From assembly GCA_009377605.1 (NCBI GenBank), contig WHTT01000063.1, positions 1 through 36,974 of the forward strand: a stretch of DNA of 36,974 nt, in the 5' to 3' direction. This document shows positions 12,985 through 36,974 of the stretch, in pieces. This stretch comes from Luteitalea sp. (GTDB taxonomy: Bacteria > Acidobacteriota > Vicinamibacteria > Vicinamibacterales > Vicinamibacteraceae). Every line of letters starts with the position of its first letter. Position 1 is the stretch's first letter. A model generated the notes under the pieces. That model did not search any database and had not been told where the DNA came from. It saw only the letters and a list, made by a program, of their open reading frames with translations. The position numbers and the translations under genes were made by a program.

Positions 12985-13045
12985 CGTCTCAGAGGCGCGT
13001 CTCAGAGCACGTCTCAGAGCACGTCTCAGAGCACGTCTCAGAGCA
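12985..13045. repeat. 12-bp tandem repeat, four perfect units plus one variant
   Basis: cgtctcagagca is repeated exactly at 12998, 13010, 13022 and 13034; a variant unit begins at 12985. The last unit contains the stop codon (tca at 13038-13040) of the gene on the minus strand, so unit changes could alter that protein's C-terminus. Confidence 0.9.
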
Positions 13046-14216
13046 AGAGCATTTCGATGCGGTGCGCGTGAACGGTCGACGCGGCTGAGGACCAAGCAAA
13101 GATCGTGAATCGGCCGTCCTGTGAAGCCACGAGCGCGATGCTGTCTCGCTGATCGTGGACGAACTGCGCCGCGGCGAGATGTCGCGTTCCGCCGAGCTGC
13201 TCCGGACCGACCACCGCCGCCGCCGCGCCTTGAATCGGTTCCGTCACCATCACCTCAGCGACCTGCGCCCGGTCTTTGCGGCGTGTAATCTTCACACCAA
13301 ACGCAAGCAAGTCGTACTCCGAGGTGAGCAGCGTGGCGCCGTCGACTGCGGTCAAGCCCGCAACCGCGGCTACGGCGCGATCGAGTGCCTCCTGCCACGG
13401 CTGGCTGCGCGTCTCATCAGGAGCGGCACGATTCAGGAACGCCAGCTCGGAGAAGGGAGGCGACACGGCGTACGGAATCGGGCGGACGATTGACTCTCGC
13501 CAGGTGTCGGTGCCCGCCGGCACGACGAGCAGGGATCCTCCCCGTCCGTGTGCGCGCATCGAGACGGCGAGCGGCACCAATAGATTGGACGAGTCGTTCC
13601 AGGCTGCTGCCGAGCACAGGCCGAGCATGCTCATCACGAGCGGCGGACAGTCCGGCAGCTTCCAGCCGTGCTCGTCCACCACCTTCACCTGGTCCCCTTC
13701 GAGCACCGCGACGTTGACGAACTTGCCTGATTCATCGCCGCGGTGATGTTTGAGGACGAGCAAGCCTGGCGCGGCGACCTCGAGCACGACCGACCACGCG
13801 GGCACGGTGTGGGTCGTGCCCCAGACGCACAAGCCGTGCTGACCTGGCCATACGCCCAGATGAATGCCCGCGCGCTCCACAGCAGGTGCGACGCGGGTCA
13901 GCGCCTCCGGACGAAGGAGCAGCGGCCGCTCGAACCTCAGCGGGTACGCGGCAACCTCTGGAGCGAGGAAGGCAAGCGAGATCCGCGGGAGGTACCCTTC
14001 TTCCCGTCGCAGGCTCGCCCAGAACGCCGCATCGATCATGTCTTCGATCGTCGCAACGTCCGGAAGAGAGGCGGCAGGCATCTCGCCGCGGCTGCGCGCC
14101 TCCGCGTGATGGCGAGCGAAGTACGCGTGCACGGCAGGCGAGACGAACCGGGCAGCTCTATACGCCTGTCCCGTCATCGGCGCCATCGAGGAGGTGATTG
14201 CGGCTCCCTGCGACAT
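13038..14216 (-). CDS. DisA_N/DAC-domain protein with N-terminal DACNV-like sensor region
   Basis: This 392-residue protein carries, in its C-terminal half, the signature of diadenylate cyclases: GRGGSLLVVP (224-233), the DGA motif in VDGATLLTSEYDLLAFGVKI (291-310) and GTRHLAAA (343-350), where the usual RHR is RHL. The order and the ~50-residue spacing between DGA and GTRH match DisA_N domains, which condense two ATP into c-di-AMP. The N-terminal ~200 residues resemble the uncharacterised sensor regions named DACNV. No signal peptide or membrane segment is seen, so a soluble cytoplasmic enzyme is likely. ATG 14216 is chosen; GTP/ATP specificity and activity are inferred. The stop codon lies inside a 12-bp tandem repeat. 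It is divergent from the TonB receptor gene at 14453. Confidence 0.75.
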   Translation of the reverse strand: MSQGAAITSSMAPMTGQAYRAARFVSPAVHAYFARHHAEARSRGEMPAASLPDVATIEDMIDAAFWASLRREEGYLPRISLAFLAPEVAAYPLRFERPLLLRPEALTRVAPAVERAGIHLGVWPGQHGLCVWGTTHTVPAWSVVLEVAAPGLLVLKHHRGDESGKFVNVAVLEGDQVKVVDEHGWKLPDCPPLVMSMLGLCSAAAWNDSSNLLVPLAVSMRAHGRGGSLLVVPAGTDTWRESIVRPIPYAVSPPFSELAFLNRAAPDETRSQPWQEALDRAVAAVAGLTAVDGATLLTSEYDLLAFGVKITRRKDRAQVAEVMVTEPIQGAAAAVVGPEQLGGTRHLAAAQFVHDQRDSIALVASQDGRFTIFAWSSAASTVHAHRIEMLLL

Positions 14217-28760: not shown

Positions 28761-29252
28761 CTACAACTCCCAGCGTTCGCGCCGCATCAGGCCGAGCAGA
28801 TTGATGCACGGTACGCCAAGTTCACGGCACACGTCCGGAATGTAGTGGTCCTTGGGCGGCTTGCGCTTTTCAGCTGCTGACGTCTCTTGTGACACGACGA
28901 CACCGTTTCGGATTTGTGCGAGCGCGATCACGTACGCGTCCGCGGACTGGTACGGGCTCTTTGCGTCCAGCAGGTCGGGATACATCGCCTCGATCGCCGC
29001 GCCAGCCTGCTGAATCTCTGTCGTCAACGGAACGAAGAGACCGGCCGCGCCCTTCGCCCACGCCTGCAATCCTGGAGTCCCGACCGAATCGATTTCCTCT
29101 TTCACGAGGGACACAGCTGCGCATTCGCCCGCGTCAATGAGTTGTCGGAGCTTCTCTTCCAGCGATCGAAAAACGTCGAGCGGGTAGTACCTCGCCTGCC
29201 AGTCCATGAACATGCTTGTGTCGAGCGAGTACATGGGCTGGTCGCCGGTCAA
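28761..29252 (-). CDS. DUF4411 family PIN-like toxin
   Basis: This 163-residue protein matches DUF4411: YSLDTSMFMDWQARYYPLDV at the N-terminus with the PIN-type first Asp, VSLVKEEIDSVGTPGLQAWA, then QSADAYVIALAQ with an Asp, VVVSQETSAAEKRKPPK and HYIPDVCRELGVPCINLLG. DUF4411 proteins are predicted PIN-like RNases acting as toxins. The reading can begin at TTG 29252, overlapping the preceding stop by four bases, or more likely at ATG 29234 (MYSLDTS). It is translated directly after the HTH-ImmA/IrrE gene, and the pair forms a predicted type II toxin-antitoxin module in which the upstream gene product is the partner. Confidence 0.82.
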   Translation of the reverse strand: MTGDQPMYSLDTSMFMDWQARYYPLDVFRSLEEKLRQLIDAGECAAVSLVKEEIDSVGTPGLQAWAKGAAGLFVPLTTEIQQAGAAIEAMYPDLLDAKSPYQSADAYVIALAQIRNGVVVSQETSAAEKRKPPKDHYIPDVCRELGVPCINLLGLMRRERWEL

Positions 29253-30454
29253 TCGCCGCCATCCACAACGGACGCGCCGGCGGCGCCGCTGGTCAGTTCG
29301 CCGCGCAGCTTCTCGATATGGTCGAACCTGAGATCGAGGTAGCGGCTCGCATCGACAGCAGTGATCCGGTTCGCGTCGAGTGCTTCGAGCACGAGCTGGA
29401 CAAACGGCCGGCCGGCTCGGCCAAGGGTCTTGTCAACGGGAGACGCGATCCCACCCCTGCGCGGCTTGAGCGACAAGACGTAGTCGTTCCAGTCCGCCCG
29501 CCACTGACGGTAGCCGTCCCAGCTCATTGCTCCCGCGCTGCGCAGCCGTGTCGCCATCGCAAGCGGCGTGACGCGGAACCTGGCGGCAAGCGCTCGCACC
29601 CTCGCAACGTCCCAGCCATCACGCCCTACCGCTGTGCCCCTGAGCTGCTGCTCCAGAGCACTCTGCGGAATGATGGCCTCGCTGGCCGCCTCCTCGGCGA
29701 AGCGCTCGACCTCCATCCATTGGGTGTCGCTCCGAGGCTCACGCAAGGCAACGGTTTCCTCTTTGCCTAGCGCCAGGGTGATGTGAACGAGCTCGTGGAG
29801 GAGAGAGTAGATGCGTGCCCCAGGCGAACTCTCCTTGCTGTTGATACCGACCGCCGGCAACGGAAAGTCGAGCACGGAGACGCCGCGCGTCTGTTCGAGA
29901 GGCACCTTGGGGAACTGAAAGACCATGACGCCGGCTTGTTCGACGGCCGAACGCCATTCGCGCCACGCCTGCCACTCGTCCCGCCAGCCCAATTGCTGCT
30001 CGATGGCCACGCCTAGCGTTTCACGAAGACGCTGCCCCACTGCTGTTGGGCCTTCGGAAAGGCGGGCGGTTGTCCGGAACTCCGGAATCGTGAATCCAAG
30101 CTCCTCGTTGAGCTGGATGGCCAGCTCTCTGCGCTGCAACATCACGCGGAGTGCCAACCTGAATTCGGGTGATTCGACGCCGGGACGCACGCCAGGCAGC
30201 CGGCGGTACTCCGCAGCCAGGGGCGGAATCGACGGAGGTTGCGGAAGGAAGAAGACGCCGAACGGACGATGGTAGTACTTGGCCAGCTCCTGGGTCTGGC
30301 GCACGGTTGGCTTGCGCTCACCGCGCTCCCAGGCTTCGAGCCGATCGAGCTTCACGCCCAGACGCTTCGCCACGATCTCTGCTGGGTAGCCGCTCTGCTC
30401 CCGTGCCCACGCGAGTAGGGTCGGGTTCACTTCGGCTGGGATGGCGAGGGACAT
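29249..30454 (-). CDS. HTH-XRE and ImmA/IrrE metallopeptidase-domain protein (partner of DUF4411)
   Basis: This 401-residue protein combines an N-terminal XRE helix-turn-helix (about 10-65; YPAEIVAKRLGVKLDRLEAW, RGERKPTVRQTQELAKYYH) with a C-terminal ImmA/IrrE zinc peptidase domain. The zinc site is HELVH at 220-224 in SLLHELVHITLALG, with a downstream Glu in EVERFAEEAASEAIIP as the probable third ligand. Such proteins bind their own operator and, in phage-type switches, cut a repressor; next to DUF4411 they behave as the antitoxin/regulator. ATG 30454 gives the expected start just before the HTH. No signal peptide is seen, so it is cytoplasmic. The 124-bp gap to the helicase gene suggests a separate promoter. 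Confidence 0.88.
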   Translation of the reverse strand: MSLAIPAEVNPTLLAWAREQSGYPAEIVAKRLGVKLDRLEAWERGERKPTVRQTQELAKYYHRPFGVFFLPQPPSIPPLAAEYRRLPGVRPGVESPEFRLALRVMLQRRELAIQLNEELGFTIPEFRTTARLSEGPTAVGQRLRETLGVAIEQQLGWRDEWQAWREWRSAVEQAGVMVFQFPKVPLEQTRGVSVLDFPLPAVGINSKESSPGARIYSLLHELVHITLALGKEETVALREPRSDTQWMEVERFAEEAASEAIIPQSALEQQLRGTAVGRDGWDVARVRALAARFRVTPLAMATRLRSAGAMSWDGYRQWRADWNDYVLSLKPRRGGIASPVDKTLGRAGRPFVQLVLEALDANRITAVDASRYLDLRFDHIEKLRGELTSGAAGASVVDGGD

Positions 30455-30578: not shown

Positions 30579-33500
30579 TCACACCGACTCCCCGTCGGCT
30601 GAGACGGCTCGTCTGAGCGTCGCCTCAACTTCATCCGGCGAATCGTTGTCTGGGGCCGGTGGTGCCCATTCTCTCCTCTCCACTAGGCTCGGAATGCGGT
30701 CTGTAGCCCCGATCGGTTCGATACCCATTGCGCCAAGGCGCTCCAGCAGCTCCGCCAGCACGTCGTCGCGGTGCAGCGACCACGTTGACGCAAAGCACCG
30801 CCAGAATGTCCATCCCGCCCTCTCCAGGACTCGCTGCCGTTTCGTGTCATCCTGCCACCGGTCAGGGCCGTGGTACTCATCGCCGTCGCACTCGATCGCG
30901 AGCCGCGTATCGCTAGCTCCCTCTGCGACCATGTCGATCCGATACGCTCCTGTCTTGACCTGCGGAACAACGCGATAGCCGAGCGCCGTGAGTGCGGTGA
31001 ACACCTGCCTCTCGAACCCGGACTCGCAACGGTCGATGAGGTTCTCTTCCTCGGTCTCCTCGGTGACCATCGGTTTGTCGAAATGAGCCAAGAGAGTCAA
31101 CCGCAGATCCTTATCCGACAGGTCCGCAGACCTGACCGACCGTACGAGATACATTCGATCTCTTGCTCGTGACGCCGCAACGTTGAACCGCTGGTCGAAG
31201 AGGTTCCCCGACAGCGCCTTGCTGTTCGTTGGGTCGACCACCATCGACAGGAACATGATGTCCTTCTCGCTGCCCTGGAAACTGCGCGCGTCACCGCATT
31301 CAAAGCGCCGGCGCAAAAGCTCCGCTGCGTCGCACCGCTGTCGAACAACGGAGTCGATGTGCTTCGCTTGTTCCAGCCCCAGGAGCGACACGACACCCAG
31401 CGTCCGGCTCTTGAAACGCTCGTCCTTCAGCAGTCCAGTAATTTCATCGGCAATTGCCAGCGCCTCGTACTCGTTGCAGTCGCGCCTGTTGCGCACACCG
31501 TCCTTTACGAGCACGTCCACCAAAGGCGGATCGATGCGTTCCGACGGCTTCGGAATACGAAGCGGTCGAATGCCGCCCTTGTAGAACGTCCGATTCGAGT
31601 ACGCAATGATGGGCGGCACGCATCGGAAGTGCTCACGGAGCATCACCTGCTGAGCGGCGAAGACGCGTGCCGCCAGGTCATACAGCGATTTCTCCGGCGT
31701 CATCTCCGTTCCGTACGGTTGGCCGGCGAGAAAGCGATCTTTGAGTTCCTGTATTCGCTGCGAGGCGATAAAACCGGCATCCGGCGAGACCTGCTTATCA
31801 TCACCGACTATCAAGATCTTCTTGCCGCGCAGGATTGCGGGCAATGCCCACAGGTCGGACTGGCTTGCCTCATCCACGATAACGAGATCGAATGCGCCGA
31901 TGTCTGCGGGCATAGCCTCAGAGATACGGGCGTGGCTCATGATCCAGCACGGCACCGCGCCGGCGGCATCCAGCATTGCTTCGCGGGCATCCCGCCTGTA
32001 TCTTGTCGCGTTCGGCCCGGTGCCTTGGCCGATGCGACGGATTGCGGTTGCATAGCCCGCTAGCGCCTGAAGCACTCGAGGCGTCGCGTTCCGCTTGGTC
32101 GCAAGCCACGCGGACTTTGCCACCATGTCTTTGTAGAGCCGCGAGAGGCCTGCTTCCAAGTCTCTCCGACGAGCGGCCATCGCGACGAGCTCGTGACGTG
32201 CCTCGATGGTCTCGAGATGAGTGCGCACACGAGCCCACGTCCACGCCTTACGCCATGTGGTGGGGAACACGGCATCGTCGACGTTGGCTTCGGCAGCCTG
32301 ACAACAAAGCCGAGCAGCGAGCCGCGGCGCCCCGGCATTCTGAATCCGTTGCGATAAGTCACGGACCTTGCTGATGTCACTGGCACGACCGGCAAGCCGT
32401 TGAAGTTCTGCGCCCAGGTTGCTGTATTCAGCTACGGCTCGCTCTGCCGAAATCTCGGGACTGCCCAGCGTGCGCTCTACGAAGCCACGGAATCGCTCGG
32501 AGACAGGGCCGGTTTTGCCGGCGAGCTTCTCTTTCAGAACGGCGAGGTTCGTTACTGCTCGAGAGAGATCGGCTCGAGTCAGGTGACGGAGCAACTGCTC
32601 GCGGACGACCGCCAACTCTCGAACTCCTCCAAGAAGTTGCGCCGTCGGTGGCTCATCGAAGACGGCCGCCGCTCTCTTCGGAAGATCGTGATCGTAGTCG
32701 GTCGCGAGCCGGTGTGCCTTGTAGCCTGTGGTGGCCACCAATTCAACTGTTCTCACGAATCTGATGCCGGCCTGCAAGGGTGGTGCAGAGAGCCCCTCCG
32801 CGATCTCGTTCCAGCGCGTCGCAAAGGACAACACCTGCTCGTGCAACCCGACGTACCGCAGAACATGTGACCAGTCCTCTGAACCTTCAGCAGACCTCCC
32901 AGCGATCCGAACGCGTCCCAGATGTTCTTTGGCCTGGCCGTTTCCGAGGGAGACGAATCCGAACGGCTTGCCGCTTGTTGCTCCGCGTTCCACCGCTTGC
33001 CGGGTCTTGATGTTCGTTAGCCCTTCCTCAGGGAACTCGACGGGCCGCTTCAGGAATTCGGCTCGCGCTTCGACAATCGCCTCAAGCTCTGGATAGAGCG
33101 CTTCGAGTGCCCTTCTCTCCGAAGCAAATGCCGAATCGCGACACTTGGTGCGCAGTTCGAAGGGCCACCCGCCGTCAACGCTCTCCAGTTCCTTTGCGAG
33201 CGTCAGAGCCTCTTCCACCCGAGCAAGCAACGCGCGAGCAGCCTGCAACACCTCCGGAGTCGTAGCTCTCAGTCCAATCAGCTCACCACTTGCGATCTGA
33301 CCGTCGAGCGTCTTCAAGCGAGAGAGAACGTCGTGGAGCTCAGCAATCGCCGCAACGCTTGGCAGGTCTCCCGGAGAGGGGATTGTGTGCCGAGTGTACG
33401 CGACGTCTGCCGCAAGCCGCCGCCGGGCAGACCGCAGCTCCTCGGCTTCGTCGCCAGAGAATGGCGGCGCGTGCTCTGTCGAAAGGCTCAGAGGGTCATC

Positions 33501-35159
33501 GAACCAACCATACTGCGCGCGACCGGAAACAACGAGCTCGGCAAGACCCTGCGCGCGCATGGGCACGCCGTCGATGTCTACGTCGGCAAGTTGTGAATGG
33601 GCGATTTCATCAGTCCTTGCGTCGATCCTCGCGAGCTCGATGTGGGCACGATCAATAGCGCTCTGGGTTGTCAGGATGTCCCGCTGCGTCTGCTCTGGAT
33701 TCAGTTGCGAGACTTGATGCTGGATTGACTCGATCGCTGCTTGAAACTGCCGAACCCCCTCCCGATCGCTGGCGAGGAGCGACACGGTCAACGCTCGGAC
33801 CCGATCCGGCATCTTCGTTTGCAACACTTCCAGCGCTCGTTCACCGCGAGACGTCACGAGCACGCGCCGACCCGTTGCAAGATAGTGGCAGACGATGTTG
33901 GCGATCGTGTGCGTCTTCCCGGTACCGGGAGGGCCCTGCACCGTCACACCGGGGGATCGTTCGAGCCGTTGAATGATGGTTACCTGTTCCTCGTTGTATG
34001 GAAGGGGAAAGTACAGCTCTTCTGGCTTGTCTGGTCCGCTATCGCCACGGCTTGAGATGCCTCGAAAACGGACCGTCTCGTATTTGACGGGCTCGTCTGA
34101 CGGAGAGGTAACGAGGGCTTCCGGTCCGGCAGGAATAGTGCAACCGCTTTCAAGCTTTGCTTGGAGCCGCTTCAGGTCCTCAAACAGATAGTTGTTCGAG
34201 CGAGGACGTGACAGTAGCACCCAGGCGCCCGTCACTATGAGATGTTCACCAGGACCTGGACGGGCGGCCCCTGGCACAATCACATCCCGAACATTGCCTT
34301 CTGGATCTAGGTTGCCCGCCGCGAGCTTGAGCACGTCTGAGTACGAGGAATTGTCAAAGGGAGAAACCGGCGCGTCTTTGTGGCGTGACAAGTGCTCACG
34401 GATCGCACGCTCCACATCCGCAGCGCCTCTGACTTGGCAAGCGATGAAGGCGTCAAGTTCCACGTTCGTGTCGGTTGCGCGCGGACGCACTTCGAGCGCA
34501 AGCGTCCGGTCATCCAGCGAGATCTCAACGGCCTGTGTAAGGAGCGGGTACTCGAACGGAATTGACGAGCCGTCGAACTGCAGTTGCCAGTATGAGATGC
34601 CAATTCCGCACACGAACTCCTGCGGTTTGGCGGTTTCTTCTGCCTCCAGTTGGTGCTTCAGCGCAAACAGGTCTGCGTAGAGCGTGATCGTTCGTCGACG
34701 CGGGCGCTCTCCTTCCGCCCAGGCGTTCCAGAGACCGGCGTAGTCGACGAGTGATTGGAGCGCCTCCGCGCGAACCTGCGCTTCGAGCTCAAGTCTTTCT
34801 TGTGGCGTTTTCTCTCGACCCGCCTTCTCGAGCCAATGAAGGAGTGCTGCTTCATCGAGTTCAGGTAAGGGACCCTCCGGGTTCTTGGAGACGCGGAAAA
34901 GTCCCTTCTGGCTATCGGGTACCGGCGGCGGTGGGTTGCCCTCGAGGCGCTGAATGCGCAGCCAGATGTGATCGCCGGCGACCTTCAGGTCAGACTCGAC
35001 CCCCGGAAGCCCGACCAACTCGTCACTGCGCCGCACGAAACCCCTGACCGCGCCAAGCCTGTAGCCGCGCGGATCGACCTCCTTCGCCTGCTCGTGGATG
35101 TAGTCGAGCAAGCCGTGGAGCAGCAGTCGGCCGGACGTCCGCTCATGCTGGTCGGTCAT
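30579..35159 (-). CDS. large SF1 (Dna2/Upf1-like) helicase with C-terminal MTES_1575-type nuclease
   Basis: This ~1526-residue protein is a predicted anti-phage or DNA-processing motor. Residues (counting from the TTG just before the ATG): an uncharacterised N-terminal region of about 390, Walker A GPPGTGKT at 410-417, a helical insertion of about 600 residues (roughly 480-1070), Walker B VIVDEAS at 1094-1100, motif III GDDKQ at 1120-1124, and motifs V/VI at QGSEKD (1296-1301) and NVAASRARDR (1327-1336). The C-terminus is a PD-(D/E)XK nuclease of the REase_MTES_1575 type: GFERQV, YRIDMV and IECDGDEYHG (1424-1431), then ERAGWTFWRCFASTW. The start is ATG 35159 (a TTG precedes it); no strong Shine-Dalgarno is visible. 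Helicase-nuclease fusions of this kind occur in defence islands, and this one sits among toxin-antitoxin genes. Its biological role here is inferred. Confidence 0.9.
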   Translation of the reverse strand: MTDQHERTSGRLLLHGLLDYIHEQAKEVDPRGYRLGAVRGFVRRSDELVGLPGVESDLKVAGDHIWLRIQRLEGNPPPPVPDSQKGLFRVSKNPEGPLPELDEAALLHWLEKAGREKTPQERLELEAQVRAEALQSLVDYAGLWNAWAEGERPRRRTITLYADLFALKHQLEAEETAKPQEFVCGIGISYWQLQFDGSSIPFEYPLLTQAVEISLDDRTLALEVRPRATDTNVELDAFIACQVRGAADVERAIREHLSRHKDAPVSPFDNSSYSDVLKLAAGNLDPEGNVRDVIVPGAARPGPGEHLIVTGAWVLLSRPRSNNYLFEDLKRLQAKLESGCTIPAGPEALVTSPSDEPVKYETVRFRGISSRGDSGPDKPEELYFPLPYNEEQVTIIQRLERSPGVTVQGPPGTGKTHTIANIVCHYLATGRRVLVTSRGERALEVLQTKMPDRVRALTVSLLASDREGVRQFQAAIESIQHQVSQLNPEQTQRDILTTQSAIDRAHIELARIDARTDEIAHSQLADVDIDGVPMRAQGLAELVVSGRAQYGWFDDPLSLSTEHAPPFSGDEAEELRSARRRLAADVAYTRHTIPSPGDLPSVAAIAELHDVLSRLKTLDGQIASGELIGLRATTPEVLQAARALLARVEEALTLAKELESVDGGWPFELRTKCRDSAFASERRALEALYPELEAIVEARAEFLKRPVEFPEEGLTNIKTRQAVERGATSGKPFGFVSLGNGQAKEHLGRVRIAGRSAEGSEDWSHVLRYVGLHEQVLSFATRWNEIAEGLSAPPLQAGIRFVRTVELVATTGYKAHRLATDYDHDLPKRAAAVFDEPPTAQLLGGVRELAVVREQLLRHLTRADLSRAVTNLAVLKEKLAGKTGPVSERFRGFVERTLGSPEISAERAVAEYSNLGAELQRLAGRASDISKVRDLSQRIQNAGAPRLAARLCCQAAEANVDDAVFPTTWRKAWTWARVRTHLETIEARHELVAMAARRRDLEAGLSRLYKDMVAKSAWLATKRNATPRVLQALAGYATAIRRIGQGTGPNATRYRRDAREAMLDAAGAVPCWIMSHARISEAMPADIGAFDLVIVDEASQSDLWALPAILRGKKILIVGDDKQVSPDAGFIASQRIQELKDRFLAGQPYGTEMTPEKSLYDLAARVFAAQQVMLREHFRCVPPIIAYSNRTFYKGGIRPLRIPKPSERIDPPLVDVLVKDGVRNRRDCNEYEALAIADEITGLLKDERFKSRTLGVVSLLGLEQAKHIDSVVRQRCDAAELLRRRFECGDARSFQGSEKDIMFLSMVVDPTNSKALSGNLFDQRFNVAASRARDRMYLVRSVRSADLSDKDLRLTLLAHFDKPMVTEETEEENLIDRCESGFERQVFTALTALGYRVVPQVKTGAYRIDMVAEGASDTRLAIECDGDEYHGPDRWQDDTKRQRVLERAGWTFWRCFASTWSLHRDDVLAELLERLGAMGIEPIGATDRIPSLVERREWAPPAPDNDSPDEVEATLRRAVSADGESV

Positions 35160-35349
35160 CAAGCAGTCTTTTCGGCCGTCCGCCCGTTAACCTGCATCGA
35201 AACGGTCGGATCAGTTTGCCTCTAAAGTCAATGGGCTCAGCGATATCTGTAGAGGAGCGCGACGCTGTGACCCGGTGCTTGTCGGCTGGATCGTAGCACT
35301 GTAGAGCTATGTTCACGCCTCCTTCATTCGCGGAATCGACAAGCGTCAC
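35143..35349 (-). CDS. small hypothetical ORF upstream of the helicase
   Basis: This 68-residue reading starts at GTG 35349 and overlaps the helicase start by about 17 bp. Its middle (VNIALQCYDPADKHRVTASR) is compositionally protein-like, but I recognise no family. Its start codon lies inside the right copy of the direct repeat. It could be a small leader gene coupled to helicase translation or a chance frame. Confidence 0.3.
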   Translation of the reverse strand: MTLVDSANEGGVNIALQCYDPADKHRVTASRSSTDIAEPIDFRGKLIRPFRCRLTGGRPKRLLDDRPA

Positions 35350-35400: not shown

Positions 35401-36974
35401 TCACGCCTTGCCTTTCAACATCTCCAAAACGTCGGCGCAGGCAACGCTCGCGCGAAGGAGCCGGTCTTGATCGATCTCGCGGACGTGGGCGATCTCGTTA
35501 CGGACCGGTGCGATCTGGCTGACAGCCGCCAGGAGTCGCTGCTTCGGGTCTTGTGCGCCGGTGAAGCGGGTACGCGCCTCTTGCTGGACATCCGGAGCAA
35601 AGAGGATGTTTGGCAACTGCCCGAGGTAAAGGTAGTCGACGATGCCGAGCGGGTCGGCACCTGCGGGACGCCGCGCGAGGTTTCGCGTGAGCGTCTGGCG
35701 CTCGCCCTCGGGCACCGCCGCTTCGATTCTCGACGCAGCCGAGTCGCCGAATCGTGCGTAGACCTCACGGACAATCCCACGCAGGGCGCGCTCTGTCTCG
35801 GCAATCCTTTGCCACACAGCCTCAGCGCCCGGGAGGAACCACGGCGGCATCACCGGTGGAGCGTCTGACTCGCCTCCAAGCTGGCGGAACGCGACACGGA
35901 TGATGTCCGCCATTCTTCGCCGCCGATCGCGGAGAAACTCCTCGTACTCCATCGACTCCCATCGCAAGGGCAAGGCGTGCTCCGCACACAGTCGGCCCCA
36001 TCGATCGTTGTCGATGTTCAACTTCTCCCGCAGACGAGGAACGTAGTCAGCCGGGCCTCGAGCTCCAATCACGCTGTTCTCGTGCCAACCGACGTCAGCC
36101 AGGTTGGCGACCTGGTTGATACGGCGACGATCGCGAATCCCTCGAGCGTGAAGCCACGCTTCCGGAAAGAGGTGATGCACTTCGCTGGCGGCGCGCAACC
36201 CTTGTGCGGGTGGAGTGAACAAATTCCGGAGATATTGATCAGAAAACAATGCCCGTGTTCCAAGAACGACTTGGGCTGCACGGAAAGCAAGGGCAGCCGG
36301 AGCCCGGCCTTTTTGCGTTTCTAGGGCAGACACTAGCGTTTGCGTCCAGTAGTCGTTGGTGAGGGTCTCGCTCAGTGCATCGTCGAGCGCTCGTACGAAA
36401 CCGTCCGAGTCGGCCGGATCCAGCCTGGCAACCCGTGCCAAGTCCTGTTCAAACATCGTCTCCGACGACCCTGAGTACCGAGCCGTGAGCAGCGTTCCAA
36501 ACACCCAGCGCGCGATCAACTCGTCGAGCTTGTTCTTGGGAACACCAACCTTCCGGCCGCGGATGTAAAAGGCATAGGCGTTCACAATCGCGTTCTTTGA
36601 TGCGATGAGCGCCTGGCTCACGAACCCCGCGTGTTGGACTCGAAGCAGGTAGTCCCGCCAGGGCGTTGGCTCAATGCACTCTTTCGCTGCCTCATCGAGC
36701 TGGGTCAGCCGCTTCAGGCGACCGGCGGAATCCGTTTCACCCGTCGTTGGATCGACACCGCGAAGGTATCGGTAGACCGCGGACATTCGCGCGCGACCGA
36801 ACGCGACGCCGCAAACGGCTCGCAGAAGCTGTTGGGTATCGATGGACACGACCGTCCCAAGCGACATTGCCCGCGCGCGCTCCTCGATCCGATCGCGCAA
36901 CTCGCCGTGGTACACGGACAGCAGTGTCAGAACAAAGTCAGCTTGGCCGAGTCTGGTTCCCTGATTGTTAATCC
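35401..36974 (-). CDS. GmrSD-like DUF262/DUF1524 protein with C-terminal HEPN motif (5' end outside the window)
   Basis: The minus-strand frame is open to the window edge, so the gene is partial. The first visible residues, INNQGTRLGQADFVLTLLSV, are the C-terminal signature of DUF262 (ParB/Srx-like NTP-using part). About 240 residues later comes a DUF1524 HNH-type motif: EVHHLFPEAWL (codons near 36175), RINQVANLAD and ENSVIGARGPADYV. GmrSD proteins use NTP-dependent DNA cleavage against modified phage DNA. Beyond DUF1524 is a ~170-residue extension ending in a HEPN module with RNEIAH (R-x4-H), the RNase motif, as in SWT1-type HEPN domains; the usual GmrSD does not carry this. The GTG at 36915 is not the start, because the family signature lies upstream of it. 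The adjacent helicase-nuclease suggests a shared defence role. Confidence 0.85.
   Translation of the reverse strand, partial: INNQGTRLGQADFVLTLLSVYHGELRDRIEERARAMSLGTVVSIDTQQLLRAVCGVAFGRARMSAVYRYLRGVDPTTGETDSAGRLKRLTQLDEAAKECIEPTPWRDYLLRVQHAGFVSQALIASKNAIVNAYAFYIRGRKVGVPKNKLDELIARWVFGTLLTARYSGSSETMFEQDLARVARLDPADSDGFVRALDDALSETLTNDYWTQTLVSALETQKGRAPAALAFRAAQVVLGTRALFSDQYLRNLFTPPAQGLRAASEVHHLFPEAWLHARGIRDRRRINQVANLADVGWHENSVIGARGPADYVPRLREKLNIDNDRWGRLCAEHALPLRWESMEYEEFLRDRRRRMADIIRVAFRQLGGESDAPPVMPPWFLPGAEAVWQRIAETERALRGIVREVYARFGDSAASRIEAAVPEGERQTLTRNLARRPAGADPLGIVDYLYLGQLPNILFAPDVQQEARTRFTGAQDPKQRLLAAVSQIAPVRNEIAHVREIDQDRLLRASVACADVLEMLKGKA

Follow-up and report, generated by a model that had tools for sequence, protein, structure and literature searches.

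Background

Several defence nucleases share a DUF262 (GmrSD_N, ParB-like NTPase) domain followed by an HNH domain, and BrxU, SspE and DndI all belong to this kind. In BrxU and SspE, NTP-controlled sensing of modified DNA precedes nicking or cutting by the HNH domain (PMC8565348, PMC10952713). HEPN domains, in turn, are known for RNA cleavage that serves as a back-up or suicide effector (PMC3710099), and for over a decade bioinformatic papers have proposed that HEPN RNases attached to restriction enzymes act as such a suicide or RNA-cleaving back-up. The combination of all these parts was recorded by Anantharaman et al. in 2013, whose Table 1 lists a Swt1-family HEPN, predicted to be active, fused to "ParB (DUF262) with HNH (DUF2081)" in VNG7073 (PMC3710099). 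The main survey of the GmrSD family (Machnicka et al. 2015) makes no mention of HEPN, and in the literature that we searched we found no functional test of a single-chain DUF262-HNH-HEPN protein.

Other systems bring similar components together. PD-T4-2, which guards E. coli against T4 (PMC9519451), is placed under both DUF262 and HEPN in a 2023 review (PMC10952713). In ptuXYZ, a DUF262 component is accompanied by a BECR-fold RNase (PMC11980606), but there a gene of its own encodes the RNase, and PtuX has no HNH. BREX-related DUF499-HEPN (Ava_2192) proteins carry a HEPN of the Swt1-like family at the N-terminus of a different ATPase, together with methyltransferase and helicase genes (PMC12839542).

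The protein described here has the domain set of the VNG7073 type (Swt1/Abi2-family HEPN, DUF262 and HNH; PMC3710099). As in the PD-T4-2 system, DUF262 occurs together with a HEPN; unlike ptuXYZ, it has all parts in one polypeptide, and it shares the HEPN family of the DUF499-HEPN proteins, which in our case lies at the C-terminus. A preliminary description of this DNA regarded the fusion as unusual. Given the 2013 record, it is not new: the fusion has been known since then but is obscure, and the present protein adds a well-supported member to a rare kind.

A truncated gene at the end of the contig

The window, that is the whole stretch of DNA analysed, is an entire contig of 36,974 bases (G000:C63). 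The gene of interest enters at the contig end on the minus strand and stays open from 36972 down to its stop codon at 35401-35403, so the preliminary description was right that the frame runs off the window. Its 523 codons begin within DUF262, of which the final ~19 residues remain, and go on through a helical linker and an HNH domain to a C-terminal segment of ~140 residues with the motif RNEIAH. Residues below are numbered along this open reading frame. Its features are as follows:

35401..36972, minus strand: truncated gene for a HEPN-tailed member of the GmrSD family, of which the C-terminal 523 residues are encoded (open frame; 80% identity over residues 1-522 to a 1246-aa protein of Bradyrhizobium lablabi)
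36916..36972, minus strand: end of DUF262 (GmrSD_N, ParB-like NTPase), last ~19 residues (aligns with the GmrSD_N end in homologues; GmrSD_N scores 93.5 bits at residues 517-738 of the Bradyrhizobium homologue)
35938..36360, minus strand: HNH (DUF1524-like) nuclease domain, residues ~205-345 (invariant H266, H267, P270, N286 and N290; the model of the homologue matches BrxU, SspE and the Cas9 HNH)
36163..36177, minus strand: HHLFP motif of HNH, residues 266-270 (H266, H267 and P270 invariant in 11 aligned sequences)
36094..36117, minus strand: NQVANLAD motif of HNH, residues 286-293 (N286 and N290 invariant in 11 aligned sequences)
35413..35820, minus strand: predicted Swt1-like HEPN domain, residues ~385-520 (hhalign against Swt1-HEPN profiles; Swt1-HEPN HMM, E 9e-5, profile positions 7-122)
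35485..35502, minus strand: RNEIAH, R-x4-H catalytic motif of HEPN RNases, residues 491-496, with R491 and H496 (R and H invariant across eight HEPNs)

The motifs on which the preliminary description had relied are all present, including INNQGTRLGQADFVLTLLS, the first 19 residues of the reading frame, which form the very end of DUF262. The only Pfam match of the reading frame is HEPN_Swt1 at residues 483-518, with 17.1 bits against a cut-off of 27.5 (E 0.007), and a PDB sequence search with the protein (P0001) gave no match.

About 720 N-terminal residues of the protein lie off the contig. We considered that a different contig of this genome might encode them, and rejected this: the assembly was searched with the corresponding segment of the homologue as well as the Pfam model of DUF262, and no such front was found. 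The contig has lost the 5´ part and the assembly search is empty, so the front of this gene was simply not assembled. Everything said below about the front module is therefore taken from the homologue of a different genome.

The intact homologue in Bradyrhizobium

The protein of Bradyrhizobium lablabi SZCCT0422 is uninterrupted, and the 75% identity of its DNA to the window extends right up to the contig edge. Its DUF262 (residues 517-738) keeps the NTPase motif VIDGQQR, and all three enzymatic modules keep their catalytic residues. An intact DUF262 in a homologue this close, together with the HNH described in the next section, supports the assignment of the window protein to the GmrSD type.

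In front of DUF262 the homologue has an extra ~500 residues, by which it differs from the VNG7073 type. Over the first ~270 of them, the homologue shares 31% identity (E 2e-38) with an AAA_5 ATPase from a Fuscovulum plasmid, the matching part being the N-terminus of the ATPase. The gene of this ATPase adjoins McrC (246.6 bits), and the head of the homologue thus corresponds to the N-terminal region of McrB, whose N-terminal domain serves to recognize DNA. The McrB-type domain comes first in the chain, and residues ~290-500, between it and DUF262, have no Pfam match. We rejected the identification of the protein with McrB itself, which consists of the N-terminal domain and an AAA_5 GTPase and works with McrC: the homologue, where alone the McrB-like part is seen, shares just the N-terminal ~270 residues, shows no detectable AAA domain and has no McrC among its scanned neighbours. 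We did not find a McrB-type head in front of DUF262-HNH-HEPN described in the literature searched, and our own observation of it comes from the homologue only. In the Bradyrhizobium lablabi locus these McrB-shared N-terminal ~270 residues are encoded at L001:5835-6650, and the ~200 residues that follow belong to no known family.

The HNH nuclease part

Ten relatives, most of them without the C-terminal tail, align with the window protein over residues 1-365 and share an HNH motif variant of the form HHLFP...NQVAN. The preliminary description had named this domain a DUF1524 HNH. Pfam DUF1524 (PF07510) has no match in the reading frame; this profile performs poorly on the branch, in which related two-domain proteins reach only 13.9-20.1 bits against the cut-off of 23. 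The HNH identity itself stands, because the motif columns are invariant and because the homologue matches BrxU and SspE in structure. The model was built for residues 501-1246 of the homologue from 21 sequences and is of high confidence over most of DUF262, the linker and HNH. Its best PDB matches are BrxU (Z 17.6, Foldseek E 5.8e-12), SspE (Z 11.9) and DndI (Z 11.7), and a PDB sequence search with the DUF262-HNH profile retrieves BrxU at 9.7e-25.

The fold of BrxU/GmrSD (PDB 7p9k, 7p9m), DUF262 followed by a helical linker and HNH, is thus the same over the whole DUF262-HNH part. The window protein differs from it in having HHLFP instead of DHIYP, in lacking the PF07510 match and in its added HEPN tail; the homologue has the N-terminal region besides. 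The phosphorothioate-sensing SspE and DndI share the DUF262-HNH architecture of the homologue model as well, and no HEPN is listed for them, unlike for the window protein. Neither Ssp nor Dnd modification genes were seen adjoining the window gene.

The C-terminal HEPN domain

Tail-less homologues stop near residue ~365, whereas the window protein continues for ~155 residues, and the tail is thus an added domain. The preliminary description recognized a HEPN RNase by RNEIAH. Taken alone, the motif is no evidence: 0.92 R-x4-H matches are expected by chance in an Arg-rich reading frame of 523 residues, and two are found (RLCAEH at 327 and RNEIAH at 491), which is not above chance.

The assignment rests instead on profile-profile comparison, on whole-domain HMM matches and on the invariance of R and H. 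Firstly, a three-sequence profile of the tail was compared by hhalign with Swt1-like HEPNs of DUF499-type and solo proteins, and matched them with a probability of 91-94% and scores of 41-46; taking the comparisons with Swt1-HEPN profiles together, the ranges are 90-95% and 41-50. Against the score of 41, the best of 100 column shuffles reached 20.5, the reversed profile 14.4 and four other segments of the same protein 9-16. The profile search of the tail, which the preliminary description had proposed, returns a Swt1-like HEPN. Secondly, a small Swt1-HEPN HMM built from proteins without DUF262 recognizes the window reading frame (E 9e-5), its Bradyrhizobium homologue (0.004), the Halobacterium pNRC100 protein (3e-14) and a Persicobacter plasmid protein (1e-11). 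Thirdly, a search of 396 genomes with the tail profile led, at a marginal E value, to a place (G179:C1:1842149-1842424) where Pfam's HEPN_Swt1 exceeds its cut-off; this sequence, called by Pfam independently, is also among those in the comparison profiles of both hhalign and the HMM. Fourthly, across eight aligned HEPNs the R and the H are the sole invariant columns, and the Persicobacter fusion keeps both too.

The AlphaFold2 model of the HEPN region, made from two sequences, is all-helical with a pLDDT of 54, and a PDB structure search with this low-confidence model returned no HEPN and no significant match; a PDB sequence search with the HEPN profile gave matches at chance level only. Relatives of the HEPN part were found neither in viral contigs, where an alignment of wider HEPNs was too poorly conserved for scanning, nor in plasmids by direct tblastn. 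By the profile comparisons, the C-terminal domain is nevertheless a real Swt1-like HEPN (PF18731).

Recurrence of the fusion

The same order of domains, which the preliminary description suggested looking for in other genomes, recurs in Persicobacter and, in part, in Halobacterium. In the Persicobacter protein, GmrSD_N (88 bits) is accompanied by the motif HHVFP and a C-terminal LRNQLAH. A 465-aa protein of the Halobacterium plasmid pNRC100 (73259-74656 of the record) is ~21% identical to the window protein and colinear with its residues 110-511, leading from the linker through HHIFP to RNALAHHREID; its annotated reading frame is without the DUF262 front. Presumably this protein is VNG7073 itself.

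HEPN of a second family is found in the same place on a viral contig (L070:2389-4875, IMGVR_UViG_2799112840_000004), where GmrSD_N-HNH is followed by a C-terminal HEPN of the Cthe_2314 family (79 bits, RTMAAH). In several other relatives the place is occupied by SLFN_AlbA_2 or RAMA. As HEPNs of two families and these other domains share one position, the C-terminus is an exchangeable slot that received HEPN at least twice, as would be expected for effector or sensor domains.

Among the DUF262-HNH proteins that end in Schlafen AlbA_2, the domain is a Pfam match at four loci (L005, L018, L062 and L064) and is deduced from similar length together with the match at two others (L006 and L020). The RAMA example comes from a Euzebya plasmid (L026:4359-6491), and a gene for a phosphorothioated-DNA-binding restriction endonuclease lies nearby. 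Another genome of the same phylum contains a remnant reading frame (L010:676-1359), in which a PF05168 HEPN fragment is fused to a HEPN tail that shares 68% identity with the window protein.

Possible mode of action

Domain order and domain identities are established by these comparisons, and the catalytic residues are conserved. We propose that the full-length product is a type IV (modification-dependent) restriction protein like GmrSD, BrxU and SspE, made as one polypeptide that ends in a Swt1-like HEPN RNase, and that the window encodes its C-terminal half; we put the probability of this reading at roughly 0.7. The protein likely serves in type IV restriction and carries its own RNase as a back-up. 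The front (the DUF262 NTPase and, in the homologue, the McrB-type N-terminal domain) would sense invading, probably modified, DNA. Binding or hydrolysis of NTP would then alter dimerisation or conformation, upon which the HNH domain would nick or cut the DNA; for this NTP-controlled cleavage we draw on BrxU and SspE. The same switch would pair HEPN domains, resulting in cleavage of phage transcripts or of host tRNA/mRNA. Such RNA cleavage, suggested by HEPN biology, would play an abortive back-up role: should the DNA cut fail to clear the infection, the cell would be slowed or killed. We infer that DNA sensing and RNA cleavage are coupled within one chain; as the catalytic residues of all three enzymatic modules are intact in the Bradyrhizobium homologue, the family would allow such coupling to be examined in a single purified protein.

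More tentatively, we can imagine that the complete protein joins four modules in one chain (McrB-type sensing head, DUF262 NTPase, HNH DNase and HEPN RNase), and that recognition of modified DNA might fire cleavage of both DNA and RNA without partner genes.

The HEPN might also act under a different control. It could be a toxin that the intact DUF262-HNH body keeps inactive until a phage inhibitor acts on the restriction module, much as inhibition of EcoprrI sets PrrC free, an analogy that Anantharaman et al. argue for HEPNs tied to restriction systems (PMC3710099). Such a guard function is equally compatible with all the sequence data; we consider it rather unlikely.

Less probable still is that the tail is a non-catalytic module for RNA binding, protein binding or dimerisation that aids the sensing of infection, leaving HNH alone to cut nucleic acid. 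Eukaryotic Swt1 HEPNs, in which the motif is lost, are indeed regarded as RNA-binding (PMC3710099), and apparent binding or sensor domains such as RAMA take the same place in other homologues. A purely structural role, however, would not need the R and the H, and these are kept in the window protein, in its two relatives, in Halobacterium and Persicobacter, and in the unrelated Cthe_2314-type fusion.

We also doubt strongly that the window gene is a broken remnant whose protein starts near the contig end without a DUF262 front. Although the assembly search gave no upstream part and a degraded relative, one HEPN fragment joined to another, exists in L010, the frame is open to its very end with no stop or frameshift, the DNA identity persists to the contig edge, and the protein identity to an intact homologue includes all catalytic residues. 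On these grounds a contig break is the simpler cause of the missing front. Finally, the notion that the C-terminal segment is a helical extension with a chance R-x4-H can appeal to the expected motif count, the Pfam score under its cut-off and the low-confidence model, but is already largely refuted by the profile-profile and HMM matches with their shuffle, reversal and segment controls, and by the correct placement of R-x4-H relative to the aligned helices.

Neighbouring genes

The next gene on the same strand (30579-35162, minus strand) encodes a 1527-residue SF1 helicase with a C-terminal MTES_1575 nuclease, which the preliminary description saw as part of the setting of the fusion. We rejected an operon with it. 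A single close homologue of the helicase (41% identity, G034) exists among 396 genomes of the phylum, and no DUF262 protein is found in its readable flanks, its contig ending ~2 kb past the helicase. Scanning around the Bradyrhizobium gene showed dehydrogenase, cytochrome and thioredoxin genes, all of them metabolic and none related to defence. Partner genes vary between loci and the helicase is not a conserved partner, so that the protein seems to be self-contained. The adjacency of the helicase looks like ordinary clustering of defence genes.

The helicase-MTES_1575 protein resembles the anti-phage proteins PDC-S37, ProA and Hhe. Beyond it (28761-30454, minus strand), a gene for an HTH and M78 (IrrE-like) protease protein overlaps a DUF4411/PIN gene, a pair that looks like a toxin-antitoxin module beside defence genes. 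Elsewhere in the window (13038-14216, minus strand) a protein with DACNV, a probable sensor domain (103.5 bits), is encoded.
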